Source: Amphiura filiformis (taxonomy: Eukaryota > Echinodermata > Ophiuroidea > Amphilepidida > Amphiuridae). From it: 64,000 nucleotides of DNA. The DNA lies in the NCBI RefSeq assembly GCF_039555335.1, contig NC_092644.1, positions 51,101,281-51,165,280 on the forward strand, in the 5' to 3' direction. Shown in pieces: positions 1,581 to 60,200 of this stretch. Both the position numbers and the translations under genes were made by a program. The first letter of the stretch is position 1, and each line of letters begins with the position of its first letter. The notes under the pieces are model-generated. The model saw only the letters and a program-made list of their open reading frames with translations. It was not told the DNA's origin and did no database searches.

Positions 1581-1669
<89 letters not shown>

Positions 1670-3739
1670 GACGATCCTCAAGAATCACTGCAATACCTTC
1701 AACAAAGTCTGAACCTTCGTCTTGGCCTATGGGAACACCACCCAAGCATAGGTAACACATACAACAACATCAGCTTATGCCATCAAAGGCTAGGTGACAA
1801 GGAGAAGGCTCTAGAGAGCTCTCGCAAGGGACTCGCAATTAAACGACAATATCATGGTAATAGTAAAGAACTGGTGAATTCCCTCAACAATGTGGCCATT
1901 AATTGTAGTTTAGTTTCAGGTAATCACACAGAAGCCATAGAGCTCTTAGAAGAAGCATTGATTTTACAAGAGCAGTTTGGTCTTGATACTTCAGACGCAG
2001 CAACCCTCTACACAAGCATGTCATTTGTTCTCCAGCGAATGGGACAATTTGAGGAAGCACTCTCCAGGTATCGCAAAGCTGTGGCTCTTAGACGTGAGAT
2101 CAATGGAAACACACACCTGACAACTATACGATTAATCAATCGTCTCGCAAACATCCTAGTCCACTTGAGGCAATATGCAGAAGCACGAGATATACTGGAA
2201 AAGCAACTAGAAGATAACAAAGGCAATTCTGGAGACGATTTAGACAAGACGGCAAAATTGTTTACAGAGGTGAACTTGAAGGCTGGCGATCAGGATAAAG
2301 CAATAGAAATTCCACAGAGCTTGGTATCAGATCCTGTGACACTTCTGAATGACAGAAAAGCAGATGATATCAAGGATATTGATTTGGGATACTTACAAGA
2401 AAGCAAAGGTGTAAGAGGAACCATGGTCGAAAATGTAAATGAAGACAAAGAGAACGAATCTCAACATGTCGAACTTGAAGATGCAGTTTCAGTTGATAAA
2501 GGGGCAATCAAGTCTACATTAATGTGCTATGTGTCCTACAATGGAACCAGTGGTGCTGATGATGACGGTATCAACTCGGATGATGATCTTTATGGCCCTA
2601 AAGATACATCTGTGCATGCATCACTACCACATGGCAATATTTCACACAATCAAATGCAAACAAATGATGAGGGTTGCAAATTGGATAGACAAGGGTCTGC
2701 GTCGGAGATGGGTAAAGATGAAGAAGAGGATTTGTATGGATGCAACAAAGTTTACGATGATGACGGTGATTATATATCAGCGTGTTCTTCACCAGACACA
2801 GTCTGCAGTGATAATGAATTTACCACTTGTATTGAAATGAGGAGTGAGATTAGTACTACAAACCAAGTTCAACAACCTTTGGCGGAAATGAAATCACCAA
2901 CTCTTCATCAAACGGAACCAAGTCAGCGAAAGCTTCACCGTCCGCGTCCGCTTCACGTATCTCCACAATCTGCCTTTGCACCTGTCAGAAAGGTAACAAA
3001 GAACCCCCTTAACAATAACTTACCAAGAGAAGCGGTTCCAAAACAGACGCATTACCATTCTCTGTCACTGCAGCCAGTGGTCCAACCTTCTGATGACGTA
3101 TATGACAAGAATTTCCAAACTTTCAATGGTTCAGGTAATATCGTCACTAAGCAGCCACCAAACAACGGGGCCTCTAGCTTGAATTACCGTGGAAACCAGT
3201 CTCAAGTTATAGTCCACCAATCTTACAATCTTAGAAGGGAGCCGCGTTCTGGAACATGCAACAGTCATGACAACATTAATCAGGCATCAACAGGTATCTT
3301 GAATGCCATCACGAAACAACCGAATAAAAGTGTGCATAATCTGAACCAGCAAAGAAGTCCAGAGAGAAATCATCCACCAGTTTTCCTCCGTCAATCTGGT
3401 GACCCATTCCACTCATGTCAGATAGGCTATCATCAATATCGGCCTCAACCAACAAACAGTCTTCCTTACATACGACCGACAGAAACTCTTGAACCTTTAC
3501 GCGTCAGCAATGAGAGTTCAAAGACAAACCAATGGTTAGAGGTATCAAATGGCAACCAGAAGGCGACCTTAAAAGACGATACCAATCTATTGCTTTCAGC
3601 TAAGCAAATTGAAGGAAGCAACAATGTGTTACGATTGGTCTTCGGACATTTGGATGACGATGATCCTCACGATGTTTTACCATACCAACCCTCTTACCAT
3701 GACCATGATCACGATGGTGATAAATATCATAACGTATGA
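2..3739 (+). CDS. TPR-repeat protein, 3' part of gene (5' end off window)
   Basis: Three exons can be joined: 2..612 (open to the window edge, so the true start lies to the left), 977..1152 and 1671..3739. Donors and acceptors are GT/AG and the phases agree, giving 951 residues with a TGA stop at 3737. The middle of the protein has helical TPR-type repeats: the end of exon 1 (AIQLYHYC, EAYRQFRRAL), exon 2 (YLIQALEMF), and five or so clear 42-residue kinesin-light-chain-like units at the start of exon 3 (SLQYLQQSLNLR, KALESSRKGLAIKR, AIELLEEALILQ, ALSRYRKAVALRR, ARDILEKQLE). About 480 residues of acidic, then Asn/Gln/Pro/His-rich, probably disordered sequence follow. TPR arrays of this sort act as protein-binding scaffolds. 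In marine invertebrates they are often the C-terminal part of NACHT or NB-ARC proteins, but no nucleotide-binding domain is visible here, so that origin is only a possibility. The first in-window ATG is not the start. Confidence 0.75.
1584..1667. repeat. (ATT)n microsatellite abutting a 3' splice site
   Basis: About 27 copies of the trinucleotide ATT run directly into the acceptor ATTATAG of the last TPR-gene exon (exon starts at 1671). The repeat therefore replaces the usual polypyrimidine stretch. Reading it as coding gives runs of Ile or Tyr, which are artefacts. Confidence 0.95.
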
Positions 3740-14792: not shown

Positions 14793-15056
14793 ATAGGCAT
14801 AGATGGGGGGGGGATAAATCCCCAATATTTTGCCAGGGGGATGGTCCATACAGTCAGCCCCCAATGTTTGACGCGTGTATGCGGGTTTCTGACCAAATTA
14901 ACCTCATATTTGCCCATTTTAGCGCCAAATTTTCACGCTTTACTTTTACACCATATTTCATCACTTTAGCTTCAAAATAGTGGATTGACTATACTTTTGA
15001 ATTGTTTTCCAACTCCACTCCCCCCCCCCCATGTCAAAAAGAAATCTACACCACTG
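14793..15056 (+). repeat. Dispersed repeat, CCCCAATATTTTGCCAGGGG family (copy 1)
   Basis: It holds GGGGGATAAATCCCCAATAT, then TTTGCCAGGGGGATGGTC, a region about 200 long and a terminal ATGTCAAAAAGAAATCTACA-CCACTG. Related copies are at 40376-40639 (+) and 44392-44755 (-). Non-coding; it may be a SINE or MITE. Confidence 0.65.
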
Positions 15057-21800: not shown

Positions 21801-24800
21801 ACTTTTATATGTTTTATGCGAATAATTACAAAGTTATTGCACTTTTACTACATGCATGTCTGAGAGTACACAGCCACCTTAATGATCACATGACAACAAA
21901 GCAGACACAATACTGGTATTTATTTTATGTACAATTTACTTCTACATGTATCAATTTGACAAAGGCAAAGTGTATAAAAGAATACAAACATAACAATTCA
22001 TCGCTACTTGTCATACATTATTACTATGAAAAATGTCAAAACATAAAAACATTGATTTTTATATTCACAGGCACTATAATAATAGATGTATAGATATTTG
22101 AGATATAAAAAACTATTCGATTTTTTTTCAACATGTTTTCTATTTTAGCTATTCATAATTGTGCAAATAACATGACACAGACTATTCAACACAAGAGGGA
22201 AAATATTTTTATCCTTCTCAGTTAACATTCAGTTTATCAGGCAAAATAAGCAAATAAGCTCATTGATACTCTAATATGCAAATAACATTAACCCAAAAAC
22301 TATACAGCACATGAAGTCACCATACTATATCACCATACCAAGTTTAAAGTTGATTGTATTAATGCAATTTCTCAGAACATATGCAAATAAGCTCATTAAT
22401 ATTAATAAATATGCAAATACATGATTTGTATAAAAAGAAATATGTCAACAATGATACAAAACTATACAGCACATGATGTCACATACTCTATTATCCTCCC
22501 AAGTTTGATATAAAATTGGACGGATTGAGTGTGATACCTGAATTTCTCGGTCGAGCTAGAGCTGGCAAATATCATGCGAGACGAGGTCGAGCGTGATATT
22601 TGAAAACTCTAGCGAGACTGATAAATTCAGGTATCATGCTTAAATTATCCGTCAATTTTATCATTATTATGTCTTCAGAATCTTTTTTGGTCAAAAACAT
22701 GATTTTTTTGTCAAAAATGTGATTTTTGGTCAAAAATGTGACTCTTGGTCAAAAAATGATTTTTGATGTGATTTTTGGTCAAAAATTTGATTTTTAGTCA
22801 AAAATGTGATTTTTGGTCAAAATTGTGATTTTTGGTCAAAATATGATTTTTGGTCAAAATGTATTTTTGGTCAAAATGTGTTTTTGGTCAAAAATGTATT
22901 TTTTGGTCCAAAATGTGATTTTTGGTCAAAATGTGATTTTTGGTCAAAAATGTATTTTTGGTCAAAAATGTGATTTTTGGTCAAAAATGATTTTTTTTGG
23001 TCAAAAATGGGTTTTTTTGGTCAAAAATGTGATTTTTGGTCATGGCTTGTCACATTAACAACAAAAAAATCACACCAAAAGACTTTTACACATAAAATAT
23101 ATGAACTATGCACTCTATGAAGAGGCTACAGATATGAAAAAACCCTGTAGCTCCAGGTGACCGATACACAAATTTATCAGACAGCTGGGTTATGTACAAA
23201 GGTATAGGAGGCAAGATTCTGAAGGCATAATAATATAACATATCGGATGAGTCGTAAAAATATCGGATGAGCCAACGGCGAGTTCGATATTTGTGTGACA
23301 AATCCGATATGTTATGGTATCATGCAAAATAAGCCATCCAATATTATACTTTCTTAACTCCTAATAACCCTGAAAACATAATAATGAAGTTGATTGGTTA
23401 TTGTGCTGAAGCTGCAGAGTGGATTAATGATTTTGCTTCTGCCCGGACAGCCAACCGTCTGCAACATTACATAAGCCCCACATAATAGTGTTATGGGCCA
23501 AAAATATATATGATTATATTCATCTTGCAAATGAAATTCAAGCAGCCTTAAAGAAATAATACTTTGAACAAATTACAACCTGGGTAAAATACAAACAAAA
23601 TCTACAAAAGAAGAACCACCCCAACACACAGGACTGTATATCAGGCCAAGAAAAAAATGTTTGATCTTTATCACATTTTTAGGGTAGGGTGGGCCAGCCT
23701 AATTGTTTTTCTTACTGTTTCTTTTACTAGATCATTACCAAAACATACATAGTAATCAAATGTAAAATGACCCAAAAGAATTTATCAATTGGGATATCAC
23801 TCTAGTATCAAAAAAGTATATCTAAATTTTTTTGATGGTGGGGGCCTTTATGGAATTTCCAAAAAATAAAGGTTGGCATTCTTGTGCAGTAAACAGTCTA
23901 TCAAGGAAAGCAACCAAAATGATTTCTTGGCCTCTTTGAATCTTTTGTTTATTGGAACTTTGGAGACAACAACTTTTACCTGACAGAATTATGGAGAGAC
24001 CCCTTTTAGCTGTCTCATGGGAATATCATTCCCCCTATTGTTTTTATTTCGGCACATCCTCACTTTATCCTCTATAACATCCCCCAAAGTATACAGGAAT
24101 GGATTAATAGAGGAATTGATTGGCAGCACAAATGTTGCTATCCATACATAGGCTACTGGGTGAATATTTACAGCCCCAGCCTGTACAAGAATGGATACTA
24201 TCCCCACTGGCACCCAGCACAAAAAATCTGTAAGAACCAGCATGGACAACCTCTTGGCTATACGGATTTCCTTTTTTGAAACTGCAAGTCCAGACTTTCT
24301 TGATGACTTTCTGAGACGTATGAAGATGCATGCATAACAAAGTCCTACTACAGTGAAACAAAGAAGGTTAAGAGCGGTAAAAATGGCAATGGAAAAGTAC
24401 ATGGCTGCTAGACTACTCTCCTCATCATAAGAACTTATATAAGTCGCATTATATGATTTCCATTTACGATATTCTCGATATTGAAGCTCAGCTTCAGTGA
24501 CTGCATATATGTGGTTTCTTGAGATGGGAAGTCCTATGCAAACCTCTGATACTGCATAAATCATCATATTTTGTTTATTTGATAACACAAATGATACTAA
24601 GCTTAAAATACCAGCTATAAGCCACAAAATTGTGAGCACAATACGAGTTAATCTGATAGTTAGTTGGCGCTTCCGTAAAGGGTACTTTACTCTTACAAAT
24701 CTGTCAATGCTGATTAAGGTTATAAAGAAAACCGAAGCCTCACTTGATAATACAGAGATGGCGCCAGCTATCTTGCAGGGAGCACTGTCACGCCATGATT

Positions 24801-27800
24801 CAGAGTGCGAAGGAAAGGAATCACCATAATAAAGATCTGCTGTGAGTAAGATGATCAAGTACACGCCCATAAGGAAATCAGATATTGACAGATTTGTAAT
24901 CAGTAAATACTGTACTTGATTTATTTGCAATCGTTTTCGATACTGAGCACATGTGCCTAATACATTTGCAATGATTGCAAGAATGCTAACTACCCATACG
25001 CCTACTCTGAGTAAATTATACTGTAGCAAAGGTTTACATGTGAGGAATGGAGTTGGTGGCTCTGACGTGCTACAGTTTGAAGAAACGAAACAACAAGATG
25101 TATCTTTATCAACTAGTACCTGTGCTGAATCATCCAATCCATAAAAGGCATCAGGTACAATCCAAGCTAATGGGTTTTGACGGAGGTTTAATATTTCAAG
25201 ACAAGCAAGTTCTGCAAAAGCATCTCCAGCTATATTGTTCACTCTATTGTGGTTTAACTGTAACAAATGCAGTTTGACTAATCCTGCAAACATGCCGGGT
25301 TGAATGTGTACGAGTAAATTATGTGACATCTCCAATGTTTCAAGATTTGCAAGTTCTGCAAAAGCATCCTCAGCTATATTGTTCACTCTATTGTGGTTTA
25401 ACTGTAACAAATGCAGGTTGACTAATCCTGTAAACGTTCGAGGTTGAATATCTATGAGCAAATTATATGATATGTCCAATGTTTCAAGATTTGCAAGTTC
25501 TGCAAATGTGCCAGACTTTATCTTCTTCACTTTGTTGTGGCTCAAAATCAAATGTGAAATGTCCACCATATCATCAAAAGCATCTCGAAGTACCTCTTTC
25601 ACTGTGTTGTTGCTCAGCAATAACTTGTGCACTCCTTCAAACATTCCAGGTTGAATGACCTCCAGTAAATTGTCCCGTAGATCAAGGAAAGTAAGTTCTT
25701 TGAATGTACTTGAGGTAAAGTTGTTCAACCTGTTCCCACGAAGCAATAAAAGCTCAAGGTGTTCCAGATTGCTGAACATGTTCAGGCTGATCTCTTGTAG
25801 CAAGTTGTTGCCCAAATCTACCCACACTACAGGCTCGGCAAACCCATCAAACATACATGGGCTTACTTCCTCCAACCCTCTGTCACTTAAGTCTATACCC
25901 ATACTAACCGAAGTTTCATTACCACATTGGATTAACTGGATGCTTGGATTACTGCTCTCTAAACAGTTGCTACCGCTCAATTCCAATGTTGTGTTAGCAC
26001 TTTGCTGGCATGTTACATTTCCGTGTTCAGTTTTCTTCCTCATTTTGGAGGTGTCATTCATGATGTGATAATGAAGATGGTAACATGACTTGGCACATTT
26101 TGCTCGACCAGAATGTTCACTAAAACATGTACATTCATAGCTGGTCCAATCTTGATGGTCATTTGCTGCCATGCAGACAATACAGCTAACAAGTATTGAC
26201 AAAACAAAGATGACCGATATAGGAAACGCCATGTTACAATTAAAGATGAGAACAAATATGGCGAAGAGGGAATCCTGATTAAGTCCAAGGAGATGAATGA
26301 AGCTCTCAAACTTAAAGTGACGAAAAATGAATTCACTTAACTGCTAAAACCAGAACCAGTACAGTCAAATCCAGGCAGCTTTCTAATCAAGTGTCATATC
26401 ACTGCGATCAAATTTATTTCATATAAGGTAACTCGGTAATACCATATCTATGCAGGGAGGTTTTAGCCTCAATGAATCTACTTTGAGTCAATTATACAAA
26501 CAACTGTGAAACTTGACCACACACATGTGTCAATTTCTATGTCAATGCATCACATCAAATTGAAACTCTTCCCTTTCTGGAAATTTGCCCGATGCCAATA
26601 TTGGTTGTTATAATGTCCCAGCTCAAACTACTCTGTAGCCGATTACATGTAACATGCATTAGCTAATGAATATAATTTCCATGGCAACTGCTTTGAATTA
26701 ATTTCTGAACAATTCAAAAACCAAATCCATAGATGGTAAAAGCTATATTTTGCCATATCACAGAGGTTCACCCTCGATGTTAAATTTCCACTGTAAAAGC
26801 ATATTAAATCTTCACTGTTTGAAACACAACACCAATTCGGCTATTCCAGTTAAAATCCATACACCTAGCTGATGGAAGACATCACCTTAATCTCCCATAC
26901 AGGGGATGTAGATTTCAAACGGAATCACCCATTCAGGTAACCCCATTTGAAATTCACACTCCCTGTGTGAAATAAGGTCATGTCTTCCATATGGGATGTA
27001 TAGCCAATTTCAATTCAAGATAAAAGCTTTGTTTCTCATAACAAGGTTTTATATCAATTTTCAAATTAATTTCCCTCGACACGGCTACACTTAATTTATT
27101 GCAACATAAACATGGACGTTAACGTCATTGCCTAGCATCCGATCTACTTTAATCACTATTAATTGAAAGACAATGCCAATGATGTCAATTTGAAATTGAT
27201 AGCTCTTGTGTGGGAGTGATTTCTAGCGAATTGATTTCAAAGATTAATCATAGGTAAAAAAAGTGCACATTACTTGTCAAGAGAGAAAGTAAACTATCAA
27301 TGCATGCACTTTAATTCGTCTATTGCAACAGGTAATATCAAATTTACCATACATAACAAAGAAATATAATTTTCAAAAAAAAAAATCTACTGCATAATAT
27401 TCGCTAACATTTTTGGTGGAAAATATCAGCAAAATATAGATGCATCTTACTAGAAGGACAATCAATCATTTGAGACAATCGCACATAAGCAAATACTGCA
27501 TGTAGTATTCGAAAATTTCAGTTTATTTTATAAGGGTTTCTTTTTCCAGAAACTTCTATGTGGCTCTATCACATTATAATACTAATAACTGTCACATTAA
27601 AGCCATAATATATTATTTGCATTGATTTTTATAAAATTATTATTATTTGCCAAAAATTTTGAAATAATATTACTAACAACTGTCTGGAAGGCTTGCTAGT
27701 CATTTTAAGCAGAACTTATGAGACAAAATGAAAGGAAACCCACTTTCTATCTTAGCCACTTTTAACTGTGATGTTCTATGGGGGGATTTAATGTCTTATT

Positions 27801-36800: not shown

Positions 36801-39800
36801 TGATCTATATCAGTGCTTGTACATATGTAACACAAATGTGCCACACCATACATTGTAGGTATATGCTAGGTGAATTCAAATTTGCCATCAAACTGCATCA
36901 TTTTATATATCAAATTAAAGCCCTTGAGTAAACAAAGCCAAACCTGAAAACGTTTTTTTCATAGCACTTTCGGTAGCAAAGTTACATCTTGTCAAAGATT
37001 GACTTTCATCAAAAAGATTCAGCTAGCAAAATTCCCCAAAACGGCATTTCGGGGTGTTTCTAGATCTTAGTCTCATTATGATAGCAGCTTTTTTAATGGA
37101 ACTGCTATCAAAATCCTCTAAAATTCCATGTGCGATTGTCTTATCACCATAAAAAATCATATATTTGGGTCAAGTGAAGTATACAGTACGGGCATAACGG
37201 TGAATTCAACGATCGATGGATCCACCGACATCGGTGGATTCACCGTTCATGATGACATTGAGTCGGGCAACAAAATTCTACAAAATTTCAGAATTAAGTA
37301 CAAAATAAATTTATTTTATTATTTTGGATGTTGGTTTTTGCAAATACTGATTTTAAGTGAAGAAAATTGATCTTAAATGTCGCGATAATTGCTGTGGCAG
37401 AATCGGTGTGCGAATTGCCATTTTGTTTTGTTGTTTTTCATCGCCTCTGCGAATGTGCGGCACTACATTTTAATATTCATGCACGGGTCATCGGCAAAAT
37501 GGCCAATTTCCAAAAGTTCATGACAACTTTTTCCATGATATTTATCCATTTGCATCCGAGTGATGAGGCTAAAAATTAATTAATTTACATATTCATTGCT
37601 TATGGACCTCACATACCTTTGACCCACATTTTTCCAAGATGGAGCCTGAAAATTACGATATAGCAGACAAACAAAATGGTTTTCGCCACCAAATCAAAAT
37701 CATTAATCCCAAGTTTTGCACTTGAAAATCATCATTTTTTTCATCATGCACCATAAAAACGCAACGATAAATATTTTTTTGCATCGATGAAATTTAAGAA
37801 TATTTACTAAGGTACAATTTAATCAAGGACAAAAGTGTGTTGTATAAAAAGCCTTTGTGTAGTCTCAGTTGGAAGCGTGATGCGCCGTAGTATCGGTGTA
37901 TTCACCGACATGGTAATGATGGTATCGTTGCATCCACCGATATCGCTGAATAGACCGACCTCGTTGAATTCACCGTTATGCCCGACAAGTCAAAATTTGA
38001 GAATTTGTGCTTACTGGAGGCATTTCGTGTTAAAAGTGGTTAAACAAGCTTTTTAAGATAATTCGAGGGTGCTGAATTTGAAAATGCTGTTTAACCAGTT
38101 CAGTTTTGGAGTCTTAGCCCTCAAAATTCAAAAAAAACAAAATGGCCGCCATTTTCAACATATTTTTGATAATAACTTGAATTTTAAACAGCATAGGAGG
38201 TTAAAAATGGTGGCAATATTCATGTTTATGATGCAGAGGAACCCAAATTGATTGTTACTGAAGTTTCAAGTGGTATGGTTTTGCCGCCATGTTGAATTCC
38301 AAAATGGCCGCCATTTTCATCAAGTTTATGCATTTCCTGCTATAACTTGGATAGTAGGCAGCATAGAAGTTTTAAAATGATGGCAGTACCCATGTTTTTA
38401 ATACCAAGGATTCTAAATTATCTGTTACCTACTATCTGTTGTAACTAGTCACGGTTGCCACCATCTAGAATTCCAAGATGGCCGCCATTTTCATCAAGTT
38501 TCTGCATTTCATGTTATAACTTGGATAGTAGGCAACATAGAAGTTTAAAAATGATGGCAGTACCCATCATTTTGATACCATGGATTACAAATTATCTGCT
38601 ACCTACTACCTGCTGTAACTAGTTAGGGTTGCCACCATTTAGAATTCCAAGATGGCTGCCGTTCATTTAGCAATTTCTGGGTGTATTTCAAAAAACAAAA
38701 TTGTCATCGTTTTCATATAAAGGGTACATTACGTTCTGTGGCTAAATGCACTTTTAATTTAAATTTAATATTAAATTAGTTTTCCAAGTGCATTTAAAAG
38801 GTTAAAGATTTCCAAATTACCTATTATACTTTACACCGTACAACTCATGAATCTGTCAACATTGGCACTTAATGTTACTTACGGCTAATTGTTCCCGTTA
38901 GGATCTTGTAACTATTTCATTCTTTCTATTTGACCTTTCACTTTGTAGTTCAGTGATTCCTAGCTTTAATTGATGCCTTTTAAGGCAAGAGTGCAGAAAC
39001 AGAAGAGACTTGAAAGTCTCTTCTGTTTCTGCACTCTTGTTGGCTGTTAAATGCACACGTATGCACAACCATCTGTGCATGTTAGCTTAGCTTTCATGCA
39101 GCTGCAATTGTTTATACATCCATTGGTACATTTGCATGTTGGTGGTAGATTCTCCTGTGGACAACCCTTTGAGAATAGTATCACACGTGCCTTATCGCAT
39201 CTGTGCACATCATCTGGCATGCACCTTGCAAATGAATTGTGCTAAGAGCTGTCAACAATTGCTTGAAACACCTGTCTTTTGCAGTAGCCAGCAAGCTGTG
39301 ACACACTGTCACAACCAGTTATGAAATAGAAGCAAAGCTTCCACTTGGCAAGGCAGCAGTTCCTGATGGATTTTGTGGATTTGGATGTATTTGGGCTTCT
39401 TACAAATCCTGCCTTCATCCACAGCTGAGTGCATAGCATCTTGTCAAAATAAGCAGCCAGCAAGAGAAGTATATCAGTATCACATACTGAAACCACTACA
39501 GCTTCAGCATTTGTGTTAATGCAATGAAGTACAAAGTGAGTATCCGCCTCCTCATGGCCTCTAGGGCTGTTGTGTCCATCCCTGAATCTGAAGATCTAAC
39601 TTCTGTTATATGCGGTGCAAATCCTCCAGCCACTACAAGTGTTGTGGGTGCAATTGATACAGCATTTGTCATAAGCTGTTGAGATAGGAGCGGCAAGATT
39701 TGCTTTATTCTCTCCAAGTGAGAGAAAGTTCGGTAGAGGAACGTTGTGGTTTTCTATTACCCGGCATACTACTGGTCGATAGCCCGGGTTCGTTTTGTTC

Positions 39801-42800
39801 TGGTTCCAGTCTTGATGGAATCATGCTGGTATCTGTCAAAGGTTACCTCAATCCTCTGAAACTCAGCCGCCACTGCTTATATGCAGACTCCCATTCGACC
39901 ATGGCAGCAAGTGAAATTTGAACAGGCATAAGTTCATGCTGCAGAATCTGGTCCAAGTTGTACGTCCTGCCTTAGAGGCTGTCACAAATCGCTGTAGAAT
40001 GTTTCTATCTGCCTTAAGTATTAGTGGTGTTGTTTATGCAGGCGCTGAAGATCAGGAGTGCCAAGCACTTTACATTAACCGACCAATCCCTGCAGAGTCG
40101 CATATATCCCAACTTAGACGCGCTAGTTCAAGTGGCAACGATTCAGCAGTCTACAAACATCTTGAGGGCAGCGGTCACAGCTTTGACATTGACAAAGTTG
40201 TCATTTTGGACCGTGAACTATGTTGGTTCAGGGAGCAGGGAGTCAAAGAAGTGTGGGTAGAAGCCGAACAACCGTCCCTCAACAGGAGCGGGGGCTTTAG
40301 AGTGAATATGCCACATGGTTGGGATCAGGTCATCAAGCAACTTCCTCATCGATTGACCTGGGATGACCCTAAATCATCCATGGGGGATAAATTCCCCAAT
40401 ATTTTGCCAGGGGGTGGTCCATACAATCATCCCCTCCCAATGTTGACGCCTGTATATGTGTGTTTCCAGCCAAATTAACATGATATTTGGCCATTTTAGC
40501 CTAAAACTGTAAAAAGTGCAAATTTTTGCGTGCATTTGTACCATCATCTTATTCTGTTGACAAAAGGTGCTGGATTCATTATACTTCAAGAAATTTTTCG
40601 ACCCACCCCCCATGTCGTCAAAAAGACATCTATGCCACTAGCACTGGCCAAATCTTTGGTTGCAATATTCTACAGTACAGGAGATGGTACCCCTTGCTGA
40701 AAACATTGAATCATCCGAACGCTGAGACGGCTTCTCCTCATCGAGGTTGTCACGCTGGATGGTGTAATCTCGTTGTACACATACTAACTTTCCAATTGGG
40801 AGTGTTCCATCATCAGCACTTCCCTATACTTGATATGCAAGTTCTCATGTTATATAAGAGAGTACCCATCTGCCTAATGCAGTGATACTTCTTGTGATAC
40901 CTACAATCCCACCGCTCCTCTTCCCAGTACCATTCCACCAGTCTTGGCTATAATCAGGGGATACTTGGTTGAATTTCCGCCCGGACTCCTTTACAACGAA
41001 ATTCCTGCCTGGAATTCAAGGAGGACTTTTGGTGGACATGGTGGAAGGTAGCTCATTTCTGCCATATAAGTGGTACCCCATTTGGCATAGTGGTATGATC
41101 ATACCTAAAAAAGAAAGTTAGCATTCTACTGAAGGCATACAAGTGGAGATCCCAGACACCATCACGGTGTGCTCTGATGAAAGCAAGAGAATGCTCACCA
41201 TGTCCATATATTGCCAGATGATGTGGACAGATGCGATAAGGCACGGGTGATACTATTTTCAAGGGTTGTCCACAGGAGAATCTACCACCAACATCTGATG
41301 CAGTAAGGCTTCATACAAAGTATGCACATTACCAGGCTTGTATTTGGAAACAAGCAGTCACCATTTCTCCAATTCTCCCCAAAGTAACTGACATGGGATG
41401 GACCTAGATAGATAGAACCTGGCTCCACAACTGATGACACTACCTCCAATTCCCAAAGCATGTCATGAGATAGTTTCATGCATGTATAAATGGCAATTGC
41501 AGTTGCAAAAAGGCTAAGCACATTTAACAGCCAACAAGAGTGCAAAAACAGAAGAGGCTAAAGCCATTAATCAGAGTTTGGAATCACTGTACTACGAAGT
41601 GAAAGGTCAAATAGAAAGAATCAAATAGTTGCAAGATCCTAACGGGAACAATTAGCCGTAAGTAAAATCAAGTGCCAATATGTTACCAGTTTTAGGTATA
41701 AAGTGTAAAGTATAGGCCTAGTAGCTAAAAAGCGGCCATTTTGAAATCTTTAACCTTTTAAAATGCACTTGTTCTAAAGAAATTAAAAGTGCATTTAGCC
41801 AGAGAAAGTAACCTACCCTTATGAAAACGATGACAATTTTGTTTTTATGAAACACACCCCAGAAATTACCTAATGAATGGCGGCCATCTTGGAATTCTAG
41901 ATGGTGGTAACCCTAACTAGTTACAACAGATAGTAGGTAACAGATAATTTGGAATCCTTAGTATTAAAAACATGGGTATTGCCATCATTTATAAACTTCT
42001 ACGTTACCTACTATCCAAGTTATAGCAGAAAATGTAGAAACTTGATGAAAATGGCGGCCATTTTGGAATTTAACATGGCAGCAAAACCATACCAGTTAAA
42101 ACTTCAGTAACAATCAATTTGGGTTCCTCTGTATCATAAACATGGATATTGCCACCATTTTTAACCTCCTATGTTGTTTAAAATTCAAGTTATTATCAAA
42201 AATATGTTGAAAATGGCGGCCATTTTGTTTTTTGAATTTTGAGGGTTAAGACTCCAAAACTGAACCGGTTAAACAGCATTTTCGTATTTAGCACCCTCGA
42301 ATTATCTTAAAAAGCTTGTTTAACCACTTTTAACACGAAATGCCTCCAACCTTTTAATAAAGCACAAATTCTCAAATTTTGACCTGTCTATATAGAAAAC
42401 ATATTTATGTAGGTTTCCTTCTTCGGCCAGTTGTTTTAAATTTCTATGTAAATATGCATTGACATTGTCGGTGAATTTGGCTGACTAGCAAATGTGTTAC
42501 TAAGGTTTGCCTGGGATACCTATACAATACATTGTATGACACAGTACATGACCATAAGCCTAGCCCTAAAATATTTTGTCCTGACCTTGTTTCACTTACC
42601 AGCAACAGCCTTCAAAATTTCTCAAACCTTCAATTCTCATAGTAATATTCTGATTTATTTCCATTTAATTTCTGAATACAGATAAAGAAAATCCCGGCAC
42701 CCAACACTACTATAACCCAAGATTTGTATTATGCATTGCACAGCCACAAGACAACAAGCCCTACGAATTCGACTACCAAACATACAAGAGTCGACACAAC

Positions 42801-43739: not shown

Positions 43740-44081
43740 TGGAGTTTTGTGGCGTCCGTAGAACCTCAATTTTTGAGTTTTTGCGTAGCATCCGCAAAAA
43801 CTCCGAAATTAAAGTATAGAAAACATTATTAACAATATACGGGCTCAAATCCTCCAATTTTGAAGTTTTTGCGTAGTGTCCGCAAAAACTCTGAAATTGT
43901 AGAAGAAAACATCATTAACAATATTTAAAACGGGCACAAATCCTCCGATTTTAGAGTTTTTGCAGCGTCCACAGAAACTCCGCTTGGAGTTTTTGCGTAT
44001 ATATAGCGTCCACAAAAACTCCGAAATTGGAGGATTTGTGCCCGTTTTAAATATTGTTAATGATGTTTTCTTCTACAATTT
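43740..44081. mobile_element. Foldback with repeated GGAGTTTTTGCGTAGCGTCC words
   Basis: Arms 43894-43951 and 44024-44081 are 57-58 bases long with one mismatch (AAGAAAACATCATTAACAAT against its complement). Around and between them GAGTTTTTGCG-TAGTGTCCGCAAAAACTC recurs about four times and is itself a short hairpin. Confidence 0.9.
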
Positions 44082-44391
44082 TAGAGTTTTTAAACAAATA
44101 AGGTAAAAAGTGTCCACCAAATGCCTTCATTTGGCGCTCAGGCTCATTTTGTAAAATTTTCTAACGACTGAGGCAGCTCAGACACTCCTGCAAATAACCA
44201 TTTCTTTTTTTATAGCTGCACTACATGTATCACAAGTAGGCTGGTTCTATTTTGGAAATGTGCTTACTTAATTTGCGTAAAAGATGGCAACCAAGTAATT
44301 CGGATATGATGAATTCAAATATTTTGTTTGCCAAGGTATATTGGAATCTCAATCTCACGACCCTAAAAAGACCCCAAGCCCCTATTATCAC

Positions 44392-44755
44392 CAGTGGCGG
44401 CGTATATTTCTTTTAGACATTGGGGATGGAGTTGGGAAAAATTCTTGAAGTACAGTAAAGCAAGCCTTTTGGCGACAGAATAAGTTTTATGGCACAACTG
44501 CTCGCATAGCGTGCGAAAAATTTTGTTATTTTGAAGCTAAAGTGATGAAATGTGGTTTAAAAGTAGAATAAATGCGCGCGAAGCGCGAGAAAATGTCCAC
44601 TTTGGGGGCTAAAATGGGCAAATATGAGGTTTACTAATTTGGTCAGAAACCCATTATCAGGCGTCAACATTAGGTGGATGATTGTATGGACCATCCCCCT
44701 GGCAAAATATTGGGGGGAATGTATCCCCCATCCCCCTGGGATCTAGATCTACGCC
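44392..44755 (-). repeat. Dispersed repeat, CCCCAATATTTTGCCAGGGG family (copy 3)
   Basis: On the minus strand it reads GTAGATCTAGATCCCAGGGG, then the family core, ending GAAATATACGCCGCCACTGG. It is longer than the other copies and has a GCGCGCGAAGCGCGAG insert near 44575. Confidence 0.65.
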
Positions 44756-54200: not shown

Positions 54201-57200
54201 TTAATTTGCTACACTACTGTAGATGTTAGCATGTCAATTTTGAGATATAATATACTTTCCTCCGAGAGGAGCTGTGAAAAATGTAAGACAAACACTCACA
54301 CTCAATTCAATTGACTGAACAAAATGTGCCATTGGACTATTCCATTTAAAATCCACACTCCCCACTCCCCCCGTGGAAGATTTTGGAAATATCTTCCACA
54401 GGGGGAGTATGCATTCCAAGTGGAATGATCACATTAGGAAGCTCCATTTGAAACCCACTGTGGAAGATTCAGGTTGAATCTTTCTCAGAGGATGTACAAA
54501 ATTCAAATGGAGCTGCCATCCAAAAGATATTTCCAAAATCTTCCACAGGGGGAGTGTGCAATAGCCCATTTTAAGTATGGGTGTATAATTCCACACATAT
54601 GCTAAGTGGCTCTATATGAATACATTGTCATGATTGAATCCTGGAAATACAAGCATCATGACGTTGTATTAGTTCAATTGAATTTCAGAGTACAGTCCTA
54701 CATGTAACTTTTGTTTCAAACACATAAACAAGTGACATTTTCAGCTGATAATTTTTGTTAACAGACGCAAGAAGAATCCGCTCCAACGCTGAAAGAAATT
54801 GAGGAAGCCACAAAGAATGTACCTCGTCTTAACCTGGATAAGAAAGCATGGAAGGAGAAAGGGCCAAGCTCAGGGGTAAAGCTTTTTGTTTTTAAATATG
54901 ATAAAATATCATGATACTTTATAAATTTTTACAAAAAATGTGTCTAAACGTACAGCACGAAGTACACAGCATCTGCATGCGTGTTTGTGCCTTATACATT
55001 TATACACAAGTAGTACATTTAGTAGTCATTTTTCTAATGTTTGCTCTGATTGGTTATCGCTATGTAGAGTGTATGAAAGTTTTTTCTTATGATTGATGCA
55101 CAATAATATATAATATACTGTATGGACTCTTCAATGATAAGCTTTAAAAACTGTTTGTTGATTTCGTCATTTTGAATTTAAATTTTGAAGCTTCAAGGGG
55201 CATAGTCTGATTTTTTCATGTTCTGTTTTTTATCTAGCGTGGATGTGTGATCAAACAAAATGTGTTTGATAGAATTGATCTTTTCATATTTGATTTTTCG
55301 CCTACAGATGACATCGGATCTTGCCGCAATAAAAGGAAGACTAGCATACAGACAGGGCTTTATTACTCTGATAGAAATGGCTCATAAACTCTTATGCACC
55401 GATTCTAAAGCTGCACGAGCTGTTAACGAAGCATTGGGTAAGATCAATTGGTAGCAGAACACTCTATATCATGGTTACAGATTTGTCATGGTTATCGATG
55501 AGTTTAATCATGGTTACCGATTTGTCAACACTAGTTGCTGTTTAGATCACTTTCTTAATTTAAAAGGTGACCACCAGATAAATTGAAAAAGCAAAATTGT
55601 ATTATTTTGGATACTGGACAGGAATTTCCAAAAACGGACGTAAACAGTATCATAATGCTCTTATAAAATGGTTAAATGTTTTGGGAAACAATTTGTTTCT
55701 GAGTATTAAATTGATGGAAATAGTCAGTAGACTTGATCATACCAAGTTGCAGGAAGTCATTGATCACTATGGCCCAAGATGCACCGTATAAACCATTTAG
55801 CATCATTCAGGGATGCAGCTCTATACAGGTGCAGAACCCTAGTCAGCCTACACATATAATAACCATCACAGCCAGAATCAGCTCGAGTTTTGTACGAGTA
55901 GACTGGGACAATTACCAGTAAGTTCCTTGTCCAGGATAATTTCAAGCTAGCTCTATTTTTCCACAAGAAAGGAAATAGACATTGTTTGAACTCAAACTTG
56001 TTAAAACATTTAGTTTGATTACGTTTGTGAAGCTAATATTTGTGAGACTATCCCATATACATTTCCCCCTTAATTAGTTTAAATGTTAAAGCCACACACA
56101 TGCTAATCTTTAATGTATTGCTTTAAATGCCTTACAGAAAATGCAAGGATGGCTGCTAAAGAAAAGGCTCGTATTCCAATGGTAGACCCTGAGGGATTAA
56201 AGCAGCTAAGAGATATGGGCTTCCCTGAAATTGCTGCTAGGAAAGCATTGGCTGCCAATGAGTAAGTATGTTAGTTACTTCATTATGTGTATCTAAAATA
56301 ATCAAAGAGTTTAAACAAAAAGGGTATGTAACCCTGCTATGGTTTTGTGTTCCTCATAAAGTGTTCCCCAGATTATAGTACCATGCACCAAGCAAACTTC
56401 AATTTTTAAGTTCATGCTTGCTTGTGGTCTGTGTGATGCATTTTGGCCATAACATGCACTATACTATTTTGCTGTAAACCTTTAACACAGTGCCTCTGAA
56501 CCACAGTTTGTGTGCTATAGACGTGGTATGCATGTCAATTTCGTCTTCATATGCAACTTTGCCTAAATACGCTGTCATCAAATGTTTACAGCAATTTACT
56601 ATAGCTAAAATAATAGTTTCTCGATCATGAGAGCTCAATAGGCACGCAATGACGATTGCATCGGCGTACAACGCCTACTACACACGCTCATGGTTAGCGC
56701 TGCATTTCCTGTGTGTGCACAATCGATTGCGCTATTGTGTCATTCCACTAAACTTGCGACATTACGCAGTGCACGCAGTACATTCATACTCTCATGATTG
56801 AGAAACTATTATTTTAGCTATATAAGCATTACAGGCATATACTTAAAATTTCCAATGCTTGTGCTTTAAACAGCAATTATTGTACTGTTATTTTACTTTT
56901 TTTAGAGCTAAAGTCCCATAATTTTGGTTTCCTGGAGACAGTATTGTCTGTGTGTGATACATGAGCGATCAAAGGCAGTGGCGTCACACTGCATCTTTGA
57001 TTGTGTGTGTACCAAAAAACATTACACTACACTACTGTTTTGAGAAAACCAAATGAACCATACCAACTAGTTCTGATTTTCAGTATTTTATACTAATGTT
57101 GGTACTTTAGTACATGAAAGTGCAGAAATACTGGTTTACATTGGTTGATTTAGACAGTTGGAAGCTCTGTTTCTAGTTCTACAGTTACCTAGAATTGAAT

Positions 57201-60200
57201 CTGTTGATTCTATTTTTACAATTTATAGAATGAAAGTTGAAGCAGCAATGGAGTGGCTATTACAACATAGCGGTGATGAGGATTACAATGAACCACTGCC
57301 ACTTGATCAAGTAGAAAACAATAACATAACTGGACAATCTCAAAGTATATCATCAACAGCAACAAAGAGTACAGCACAAGACTCTAATGTTACTGCTAGT
57401 GATGAAAGTCGATTACAACCAGAGGGTGCAACAAATAGTACTAATGGTGCTGGTGATGGTGCCACTGCTGGTGCCAGTACTGGTGCAGAAAGCCTAGGTG
57501 CAGCTGCCACAACAAGTGAAGAAGAAAAGAACTATAGTTCAACAGAAGCCTTACAGTTATTTCAAGAATTTAGAAATAGACCTAGAAAGCCACCACCAGA
57601 AACAGTAAGTAGTTGCTTTATGGAAAAAGATCTTTTTGAAAAATATATTGTAAAGATTCGCCTAATTGTGCATATGGGTTCCCTTGATACAACTGGAATT
57701 TTGGGTAGAAATTAAAAGTGCCCTCCTGTAAAAATCCCACCAGGAAATGAGGGCACTGACCTTTAATTCTTGTTGGGACCGGATTTTCAGATGAGGGAGC
57801 TCTCTATTTGTATGTGAAATTTACCTTTAGGCAAAGAAGACCATGTTCACAATTAAGTGAATCTTTACGGTGCAGAGGTACATTTAAGTTCTTAGTGATT
57901 TATATTGTTTTCCCCCTTATTTAGGCTTGTCTCTCAACTAGTAATTTGAGGCATTTCACTGATTGGATCAGGGCACTTACCATGTCTCCTTCTTGCATAT
58001 GTACATTGTACACCAAAGTTGCAGTTGTACTGGGTTGCAGATTTATACAGATAAAAAATATAAGAAAAAAAGATAAAAAAGGATCACTACATGGATGCTT
58101 TTGCAATGACCCCTGAGGTAGGTGCACCTAGCCATTGTGGGGTGATCAGCACTCCACTCCCCCTGCGCCACAGATGGGTTATGTCACACCAGTAGCAAGA
58201 ACATGTACTGAAGCAATATGGCAGAATACAAGTTTTTTATCTGACTGGACTGGAGGTCCTATACATCAGGAGATCCAAAGAAGGTGGAATTTTGAAAAAA
58301 GAACAACAACAAATCAATTATATTTGTTATATGATACAGGTATAATATCTTCAAGATAATACCTTGCAGGGAAAGAGAGACCCCCAGATAACATTTATAT
58401 TAAAGTTCTAATTTTAATATAGATTAAATTCACACCCCAGTCCTCCCCATAGTACAATATGCTTTACATTATATTAAGCACATCAGCGACTTAAAAAACG
58501 CAAACAAAGCCTAAATGCAAAAGATTGTTTTTTTTTGAGAAGCTACATAAATAAATTGTTATTCTGATGACATTGGCACTTAATGCTAATTTATTCTTGT
58601 CTTTATTGTAGGCACTACATTTTCTTCAAAGAATGGGGTTCAGTAAAGAAGAATCAATGGAAGCTTTATCTTGTAATAATAATAACCCTAAAACTGCTGT
58701 AAGTATATAAGCCTACGCATCATTGTCATTTATCTCATATTCTCCGGTTTCCATTATGTCTTATTTGGCTGAGCAAGTAAAATTGAGATGCATGTCAAAT
58801 ACTGTGTGGGAGAGTAACCATACTTCTCAGGAGCCCTCTATTGATAATGACAAAATTAACAGCAATGTTCTATATCTAACTGCACATGGATAGCTGAAAA
58901 TATTGTGATGGCAGTGTTTGCCATTTAAATTTAATATTTTTTTCAGTGAGATAAAAGAGGATCAAATTAAAACTAGAATATTAGTATTAGTATAATGCAT
59001 GACATATGAAGTTCAATTAAGCACAAGTGCATACTATTTTGCTGATTTTTATTTACTTTTTTAACAACTATCTGTGATTATAGAATTCAATTCCAATATT
59101 GGGGACTGAAAGTAATAATATTGTGTTCTGGAACATGGGTTTCTGATGCTATCTCATACATGTCAATGTATATCTAGCCTGTTGCTTCCCTATAATAAAC
59201 ACCAGTACCTATGCACAGAATTCCTGGTAGAGTAATACAATAGTAAAGGGCAACAGACTTGGTGAACAAATATTCAAGTTTTTAAAGTCTGCATGGGTTA
59301 TAATTGACAATATCATGATAAATACTACTTATCATCGTGAAACAACAAATCATGCAGTCATAAATCAAGTGCTTTGTTTTTGCCAGTAAAGGTGGTTGCT
59401 CTGATATTGCTCTAGTCAATCTGTTTACTAATTTTGAATTGTATTGCTCCAGTGCTTTTGATATGAGAAGCAAAATGTAACATATTTTCGGGTTGGGTGT
59501 AAAATTTACTGGGGTAATGAGAAAAGTATGAGCTTTCTCCTGATGAGGAAAAATGGGGATGAGGCTGTTAACACATTTAAAAGGGCATTTTGTGATTTAC
59601 AGCCTCATCCCCCCACTTTTCTCAATAAAAGTTGAGATTTTTATTATATATATACAACTTATGTACAAGAAATTTCTTGCAGATTAATTCATTTTTCACA
59701 AATTTCATGAAATTTGAATTACGTTCTGGTATACCAGAAAGAAGTTACAACAGAGGCCTAAGGAGCAGTGTAATACACATAATCATGCTTAACTCGCAAA
59801 AGCAAAATCAGAATCAACTGAAATTTTGGGAATAAGCTTCTGAAAAATGTCATAAAAAGAGGATGCCAGGATCACAAAATACTCTTTTAAATACAAATCA
59901 ATTACACATTATATGATTGTTATTTTGATTCCTATATAATCAAATGTATTTGTTTTGTCATTTAGTGTGACTGGCTGCTTGGAGGTAAGAAGCCTAAATT
60001 TGAAGAGTTGAATAGGCCGCTGGATGAATCTTCCCATCTCCACCAAGAACTGATCAAGAATCCTGTAATATTAATGGGGCTAACCAAAGTCAGAGTACTA
60101 CTGGGTAAGATATGAACAGTTAAAACTGTTAAAAGTAGCAATTGGACACGCATGACTGTCAAATGTTATTAATCCTCATTCACTACTGATAAATGGGCAT

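Follow-up and report, generated by a model that had tools for sequence, protein, structure and literature searches.

A 4.4-kb locus with long inverted arms in Amphiura filiformis, a probable relic of an AcademX-type transposon with one end doubled

In Galileo, a transposon of the P superfamily, internal sequence has been recruited into longer terminal inverted repeats (TIRs), for which the authors invoke repair of one end of the element from the other, and tandem repeats add further to TIR length, according to the sections of PMC3573991 that treat TIR structure. The Academ superfamily, as presented in the relevant passages of PMC10045372, comprises two lineages, AcademH and AcademX (the latter cited there to Kojima 2020), with target-site duplications (TSDs) of 9 to 10 bp and 3 to 4 bp, respectively, a difference that is tied to the encoded helicase and nuclease, the latter being called simply a nuclease. 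Curated bivalve Academ elements have a mean length of 5,565 bp, and among molluscs the superfamily is almost confined to bivalves, as stated in the accessible portion of PMC10294476. Here, we describe a 4.4-kb locus in a 64,000-nucleotide stretch of the Amphiura filiformis genome (NCBI RefSeq assembly GCF_039555335.1, contig NC_092644.1, positions 51,101,281 to 51,165,280, forward strand), hereafter the window, in which two long inverted arms flank a decayed coding core. On balance, we regard it as probably a dead copy of an AcademX-type transposon, in which the element's own 3' end, copied in inverted orientation, took the place of the 5' half.

The two arms are clearly copies of one another. 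In a global alignment of the left arm with the reverse-complemented right arm, they were 92.3% identical over 971 ungapped sites, with 896 sites matching, 75 differing, and a further 469 columns holding gaps. The local score between them was 1222.5, against a maximum of 32.0 and a mean of 27.0 among 56 control segments (60 were drawn from the window, and 4 that overlapped the locus were dropped). These values bear out the preliminary description, made from the letters of the window, in its claim of complementary arms of more than 1 kb, and the 4.4-kb unit that it had placed at 37984..42388 likewise stood in coordinates and in substance, the arms extending from 37985 to 42387. The outer ends of both arms coincide at ACARGTCAAAATTTGAG, and a search of the window that tolerated as many as 3 mismatches located this 22-nt terminus at those two ends and nowhere else (0.00 occurrences expected). 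Going inward from the terminus, each arm consists of about 1 kb of noncoding DNA with repeats, followed by the 3' end of a gene. Nine indels of at least 4 nt separate the arms, the left arm lacking five stretches and the right arm four. The right arm has one 174-nt tandem repeat unit fewer than the left arm, and a hairpin with a perfect 25-bp stem and a 4-nt loop makes up 34 nt that are extra in the left arm. The hairpin looks like a small local inverted duplication and may be a small instance of inverted copying like that proposed below for the arms themselves. A segmental inversion in the host or an assembly artifact, unrelated to transposons, could in principle have made such an inverted repeat, and the lack of a TSD reported below would agree with that origin. 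However, the arms share both their outer endpoint and the 3' end of a gene from a repetitive family, and 8% divergence with nine indels opposes a recent duplication in the assembly, such that we give this explanation very little credence.

Between the arms lies a decayed gene on the minus strand, spread over three frames as determined by tblastn and residue mapping. It matches the relative P0087 from residue 800 on, with larger gaps at residues 993 to 1056 and 1098 to 1163. The minus-strand blocks that had been claimed for the core, EEADT/DTD/TGCD and RYDHT/GGIVGIT, could all be located: RYDHT at 41106 to 41092, GGIVGIT at 40913 to 40893, EEADT at 39553 to 39539, DTD at about 39484 to 39467, and TGCD at 39319 to 39308. 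The core gene starts at 41216, on the inner border of the right arm, and this point corresponds to residue 800 of the 1,539-residue P0087; therefore, about 800 of 1,540 codons are absent from its 5' side. Where the missing 5' half of the gene should be, its 3' end is found a second time, inverted, so that a plus-strand 3' end in the right arm stands head to head with the minus-strand core gene. The sequence of the arm across the junction is CATCTGGCA followed by ATATATGGACATGG, at the position of WWQYM in the relative P0002, and the bases TGGCA are probably common to the arm edge and the gene, to judge from the WWQY codons of the relatives.

This truncation bears directly on whether the arms are simply native giant TIRs, of more than 1 kb and including coding sequence, in which case the locus would be an ordinary decayed copy. 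Long-TIR transposons do have arms like these, which measure about 1.2 kb and carry subterminal repeats in tandem. We nevertheless hold this to be highly unlikely, given that the gene breaks off where the arm begins and that full-length relatives have some 800 more N-terminal residues for which there is no room here. The preliminary description had left the choice between giant TIRs and two copies fused head to head; its head-to-head arrangement is upheld by the same 3' coding end in both arms and by the core gene breaking off at the right arm's inner boundary, whereas native giant TIRs alone do not fit.

Coding sequence is present in both arms, as had been claimed, but damage is not restricted to the left copy, since the plus-strand copy in the right arm carries a frameshift and stops. 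In the left arm, residues 676 to 716 of P0001 match positions 39139 to 39016 by tblastn. Compared with the relatives, 143 nt of coding sequence are gone from the left arm, and 30 nt plus one further base, which shifts the frame, from the right arm. Common to both arms is a +1 shift relative to P0001 after the cysteine-rich stretch and ahead of the last motif, where the arms have 34 and 4 nt versus the 30 implied by P0001, and both have the same TAA. From this shared shift and TAA, the arms would appear to derive from one copy or one subfamily and to have decayed separately afterward.

The arms might alternatively stem from two AcademX-type copies that inserted near each other in opposite orientation, with their 5' ends facing, after which both 5' ends were deleted together with the intervening DNA, fusing a long remnant to a short one. 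This is a possible account, though we consider it the less likely one. Both arms finish at the same 3' terminus, as complete insertions would, each has disruptions of its own relative to the relatives (the 1-nt deletion and 30-nt loss on the right, the 143-nt loss on the left), and the family is evidently repetitive, with P0110 representing 278 member sequences. On the other hand, instead of one event it calls for two insertions plus a deletion that broke within the elements on either side, and the frame change that the arms have in common near the C terminus requires that both copies came from one subfamily. TSD evidence favors neither side.

The core gene is itself interrupted. Where about 64 of its codons are missing (P0087 residues 993 to 1056), there is an insert, unrelated to the gene, that looks like a fragment of a retroelement, which we take to be Penelope-like and of which the 3' part alone is present here, encoding the end of a GIY-YIG nuclease. 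Two relatives of the insert, P0178 and P0177, are 53% and 63% identical to it, respectively, over about half of the query. P0178 matches the GIY-YIG family of Pfam (PF01541) with 23.6 bits, above the cut-off of 22.6, and P0177 scores 20.1 bits, under that cut-off. The insert's own open reading frame (ORF) in the window matched no Pfam family, and the GIY-YIG assignment is thus made because its relatives match. By DNA comparison, the 3' part of the insert recurs at 14809 to 14923, 44399 to 44506, and 44607 to 44731, which suggests that the retroelement is repeated in the host genome.

Coordinates are collected in Table 1, which closes with features of the window outside the locus.

Table 1. Features of the locus and of the surrounding window (positions within the 64,000-nucleotide window)
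Feature	Position	Strand	Basis or remark
Left arm of inverted repeat	37985-39219 (1,235 nt)	+	Alignment with right arm
Right arm (reverse complement of left)	41212-42387 (1,176 nt)	-	Alignment
Tandem repeat in left arm, 174-nt unit, 2.2 copies	38281-38660	+	Around AATGGCCGCCATT
Hairpin, left arm only	38986-39039	+	z = -9.35
Decayed putative transposase/nuclease gene, 5'-truncated at arm edge	39016-41216	-	tblastn with P0001, P0002, P0087, P0093
Insert, apparent fragment of GIY-YIG (presumably Penelope-like) retroelement interrupting the gene	roughly 40019-40636	+	Homology gap 40018/40637
Copy of the core gene's 3' end, nearly all inside right arm	41202-41555	+	P0001 residues 584-715, three pieces
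Junction of right arm and truncated core gene	41208-41216	.	Sequence and tblastn limits
MITE-like short inverted-repeat element, perfect 24-bp ends (CGGGCATAACGGTGAATTCAACGA)	37189-37984	.	Exactly against left arm
Clustered local repeats, both direct and inverted (arms of 79 nt, 95% complementary)	43767-44091		Around GTTTTTGCG...CGCAAAAACTC
Animal-type gene, TPR protein	1661-3736	+	
Animal-type gene, leucine-rich-repeat rhodopsin-type receptor	23992-26343	-	
Animal-type gene	57149-57712	+	UBA-like match under its cut-off

By its sequence matches, the core protein belongs to a large family from animals and metagenomes. The broken protein, once joined, yielded 84 relatives at an E value of 1e-3 or less among 4,434 candidates, and a profile made from ten relatives yielded 175 proteins at 1e-20 or less, with 7,999 candidates scored. 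Sources among the matches listed (for the profile search, the best 120 of the 175) include Nymphon, Porites, Nucella, Frankliniella, and Apostichopus. Three of the proteins, P0009, P0031, and P0085, are labeled as coming from a Sedimenticola metagenome-assembled genome, labels that we take for host contamination. Lengths of 1,200 to 1,600 amino acids were found for 55 of 176 proteins. The full-length relatives are single proteins of about 1,540 residues that combine a DDE-like pattern, a FEN1/XPG-fold nuclease, and a cysteine-rich C terminus; an alignment of 12 long relatives has two Cys/His clusters at the N terminus. The joined protein matched no Pfam family, the cysteine-rich C terminus gave a TCR match in 1 of 10 proteins (E of 0.059, under its cut-off), and the middle region matched DUF6589 weakly, in 3 of 10 proteins at E values up to 0.5 and, in a second set, in 4 of 6 at up to 0.1, one of the 6 scoring above the cut-off. 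When part of the joined protein was compared by sequence with solved structures, five matches at chance level were obtained, the best with an E of 0.42, and a search for the exact 22-nt terminus in viral and prokaryote contigs confirmed nothing. Certain animal proteins that are named hypothetical or Tesmin/TSO1-like CXC domain-containing, among them P0137, P0139, P0141, and P0142, also fall in this family; such entries are probably transposon proteins annotated as genes.

Structure models of the relatives P0012 and P0110 match the folds of FEN1, EXO1, XRN, and XPG, and the nuclease acids are kept in 63 to 65 of 65 alignment rows, making a FEN1/XPG-fold nuclease a well-supported prediction for the family. 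EEADT, DTD, and TGCD are the conserved acids of this nuclease; the window copy retains FDRY, EEAD, DTD, and TGCD and has lost the IDG stretch. The N-terminal half of the protein is a putative DDE transposase. Its candidate catalytic acids are D76 (53 of 53 rows), D242 (60 of 60), and E485 (65 of 65), and the strand order around them is as in the RNase H fold. In the window copy, both Asp regions of this candidate triad are absent and the Glu reads Asp. RAG1 (E of 0.45) and Transib (E of 2.2) were among weak Foldseek matches and were not used as evidence; another fold search returned no transposase among the 50 matches listed, all of which were taken by the nuclease domain.

The combination of domains suggests where the family should be filed. 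The AcademX nuclease is of the XPG type, and the relatives likewise join a DDE-like pattern and an XPG/FEN-fold nuclease in one long protein; an ORF of 4.6 kb (1,540 amino acids) plus ends would also fit the mean length of curated bivalve Academ elements given in the available text of PMC10294476. The window copy differs from such an element in lacking the first half of the gene, with it both catalytic Asp residues of the DDE candidate, and in having recombinant arms instead of normal ends. The preliminary description had seen in the locus a candidate for an undescribed superfamily, a reading that we also considered for want of a good Pfam match. It was dropped on the strength of the FEN1/XPG fold matches and the AcademX description, as far as the consulted sections of PMC10045372 set it out, since a FEN1/XPG-fold nuclease and DDE-like acids within a large family fit that described lineage. 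The DDE, FEN1/XPG, and cysteine-rich family could instead be a separate, unnamed superfamily, with this locus in a foldback subfamily mobilized in trans through its two identical 3' ends, a proposal that we find improbable. Other candidates considered were KDZ, Plavaka, Kolobok, and Helitron; the word XPG does not occur in the available portions of PMC12730594 and PMC9587614. No mention of DUF6589 was found in the literature searched, and the word Academ was absent among the matches listed for the literature on foldback elements and long TIRs.

Several observations count against an AcademX-type copy remodeled by repair. The family was matched to AcademX by the description of that lineage and not by Academ sequences. 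Two relatives are labeled Nucella lapillus, a gastropod, which sits uneasily with an Academ filing in view of the near restriction of Academ to bivalves among molluscs in the portion of PMC10294476 cited above. The nearest transposase-type fold match of the DDE region, to RAG1, was insignificant at an E of 0.45. Three protein alignments were used to look for DNA of the relatives in viral contigs and one to look in prokaryote contigs, and nothing was confirmed. An 8% divergence between the arms is as compatible with two independent copies as with the duplication of one end. At this locus, no TSD was found at symmetric ends with the neighboring element kept, nor any exact one of at least 4 bp with asymmetric ends, and a move of the whole unit by transposition is therefore a candidate only.

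The outer flank of the left arm is a short element resembling a miniature inverted-repeat transposable element (MITE), not plain host DNA. It has 18-bp-spaced repeats close to its ends and no TSD. When this element was left out of the TSD test, the many comparisons made yielded an exact TA and two 6-mers that each had one mismatch, which we treat as chance. With another element lying directly against the left end, and with the copy itself rearranged, its original flanks may have been lost.

The results above document the two arms, their coding ends placed head to head, the loss of the gene's 5' part at the arm edge, the protein family, and its nuclease fold; membership of that family in AcademX, a DDE transposase in its N-terminal half, the repair route, and the order of events are inferred. 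The starting point would be an AcademX-type DNA transposon whose single long protein joins a DDE-type transposase to a nuclease. Probably, a double-strand break arose within the element, or synthesis stalled there, and repair copied the other end, inverted, onto the broken side and rejoined it at a few shared bases; the transposon's own 5' end would have been lost along with the 5' half of the gene. The outcome would be a foldback-like element with two 3' termini and recombinant arms of about 1.2 kb. Decay presumably followed, with a 174-nt unit gained or lost, frameshifts and deletions in the gene, insertion of the Penelope-like fragment, and the MITE-like element coming to lie at the left end. 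A single repair event is the most economical account.

If so, a striking structure is explained as likely a known transposon type with one end doubled, and animal proteins with EEADT, DTD, and TGCD blocks, which among those scanned had at best weak Pfam matches, are tied to a FEN1/XPG-fold nuclease in a likely transposase. Most likely, the structure is a fossil of a rearrangement and not a new kind of element, and the locus most likely a decayed member of a described transposon lineage that underwent a type of rearrangement known from another superfamily. With Foldback elements, as characterized in the pertinent part of PMC2775673, it shares long inverted and internally repetitive arms; it differs in that a coding core of a recognizable protein family is still present. 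The closer parallel is Galileo. Inverted arms near 1.2 kb in length that hold tandem repeats are common to the two, and as in Galileo, internal sequence that was once single-copy would have been recruited into the arms here (PMC3573991, in the sections cited above). The 3' coding end occurs once per arm, the two copies being inverted relative to each other, which matches the inverted duplication of internal sequence beside the far TIR in Galileo-like recombinant long TIRs. The recruited Galileo pieces described in those sections are spacer beside the TIR, for example 121 bp, whereas the arms in the window include coding sequence, and the transposases are unrelated. No P-type family appeared in the Pfam scans and the coding core falls in the FEN/XPG-fold nuclease family, so that the locus can only work like Galileo and not be one. 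Should several copies in the genome share this junction, recombinant long arms would be shown to arise in Academ as they do in Galileo and to remain capable of movement.

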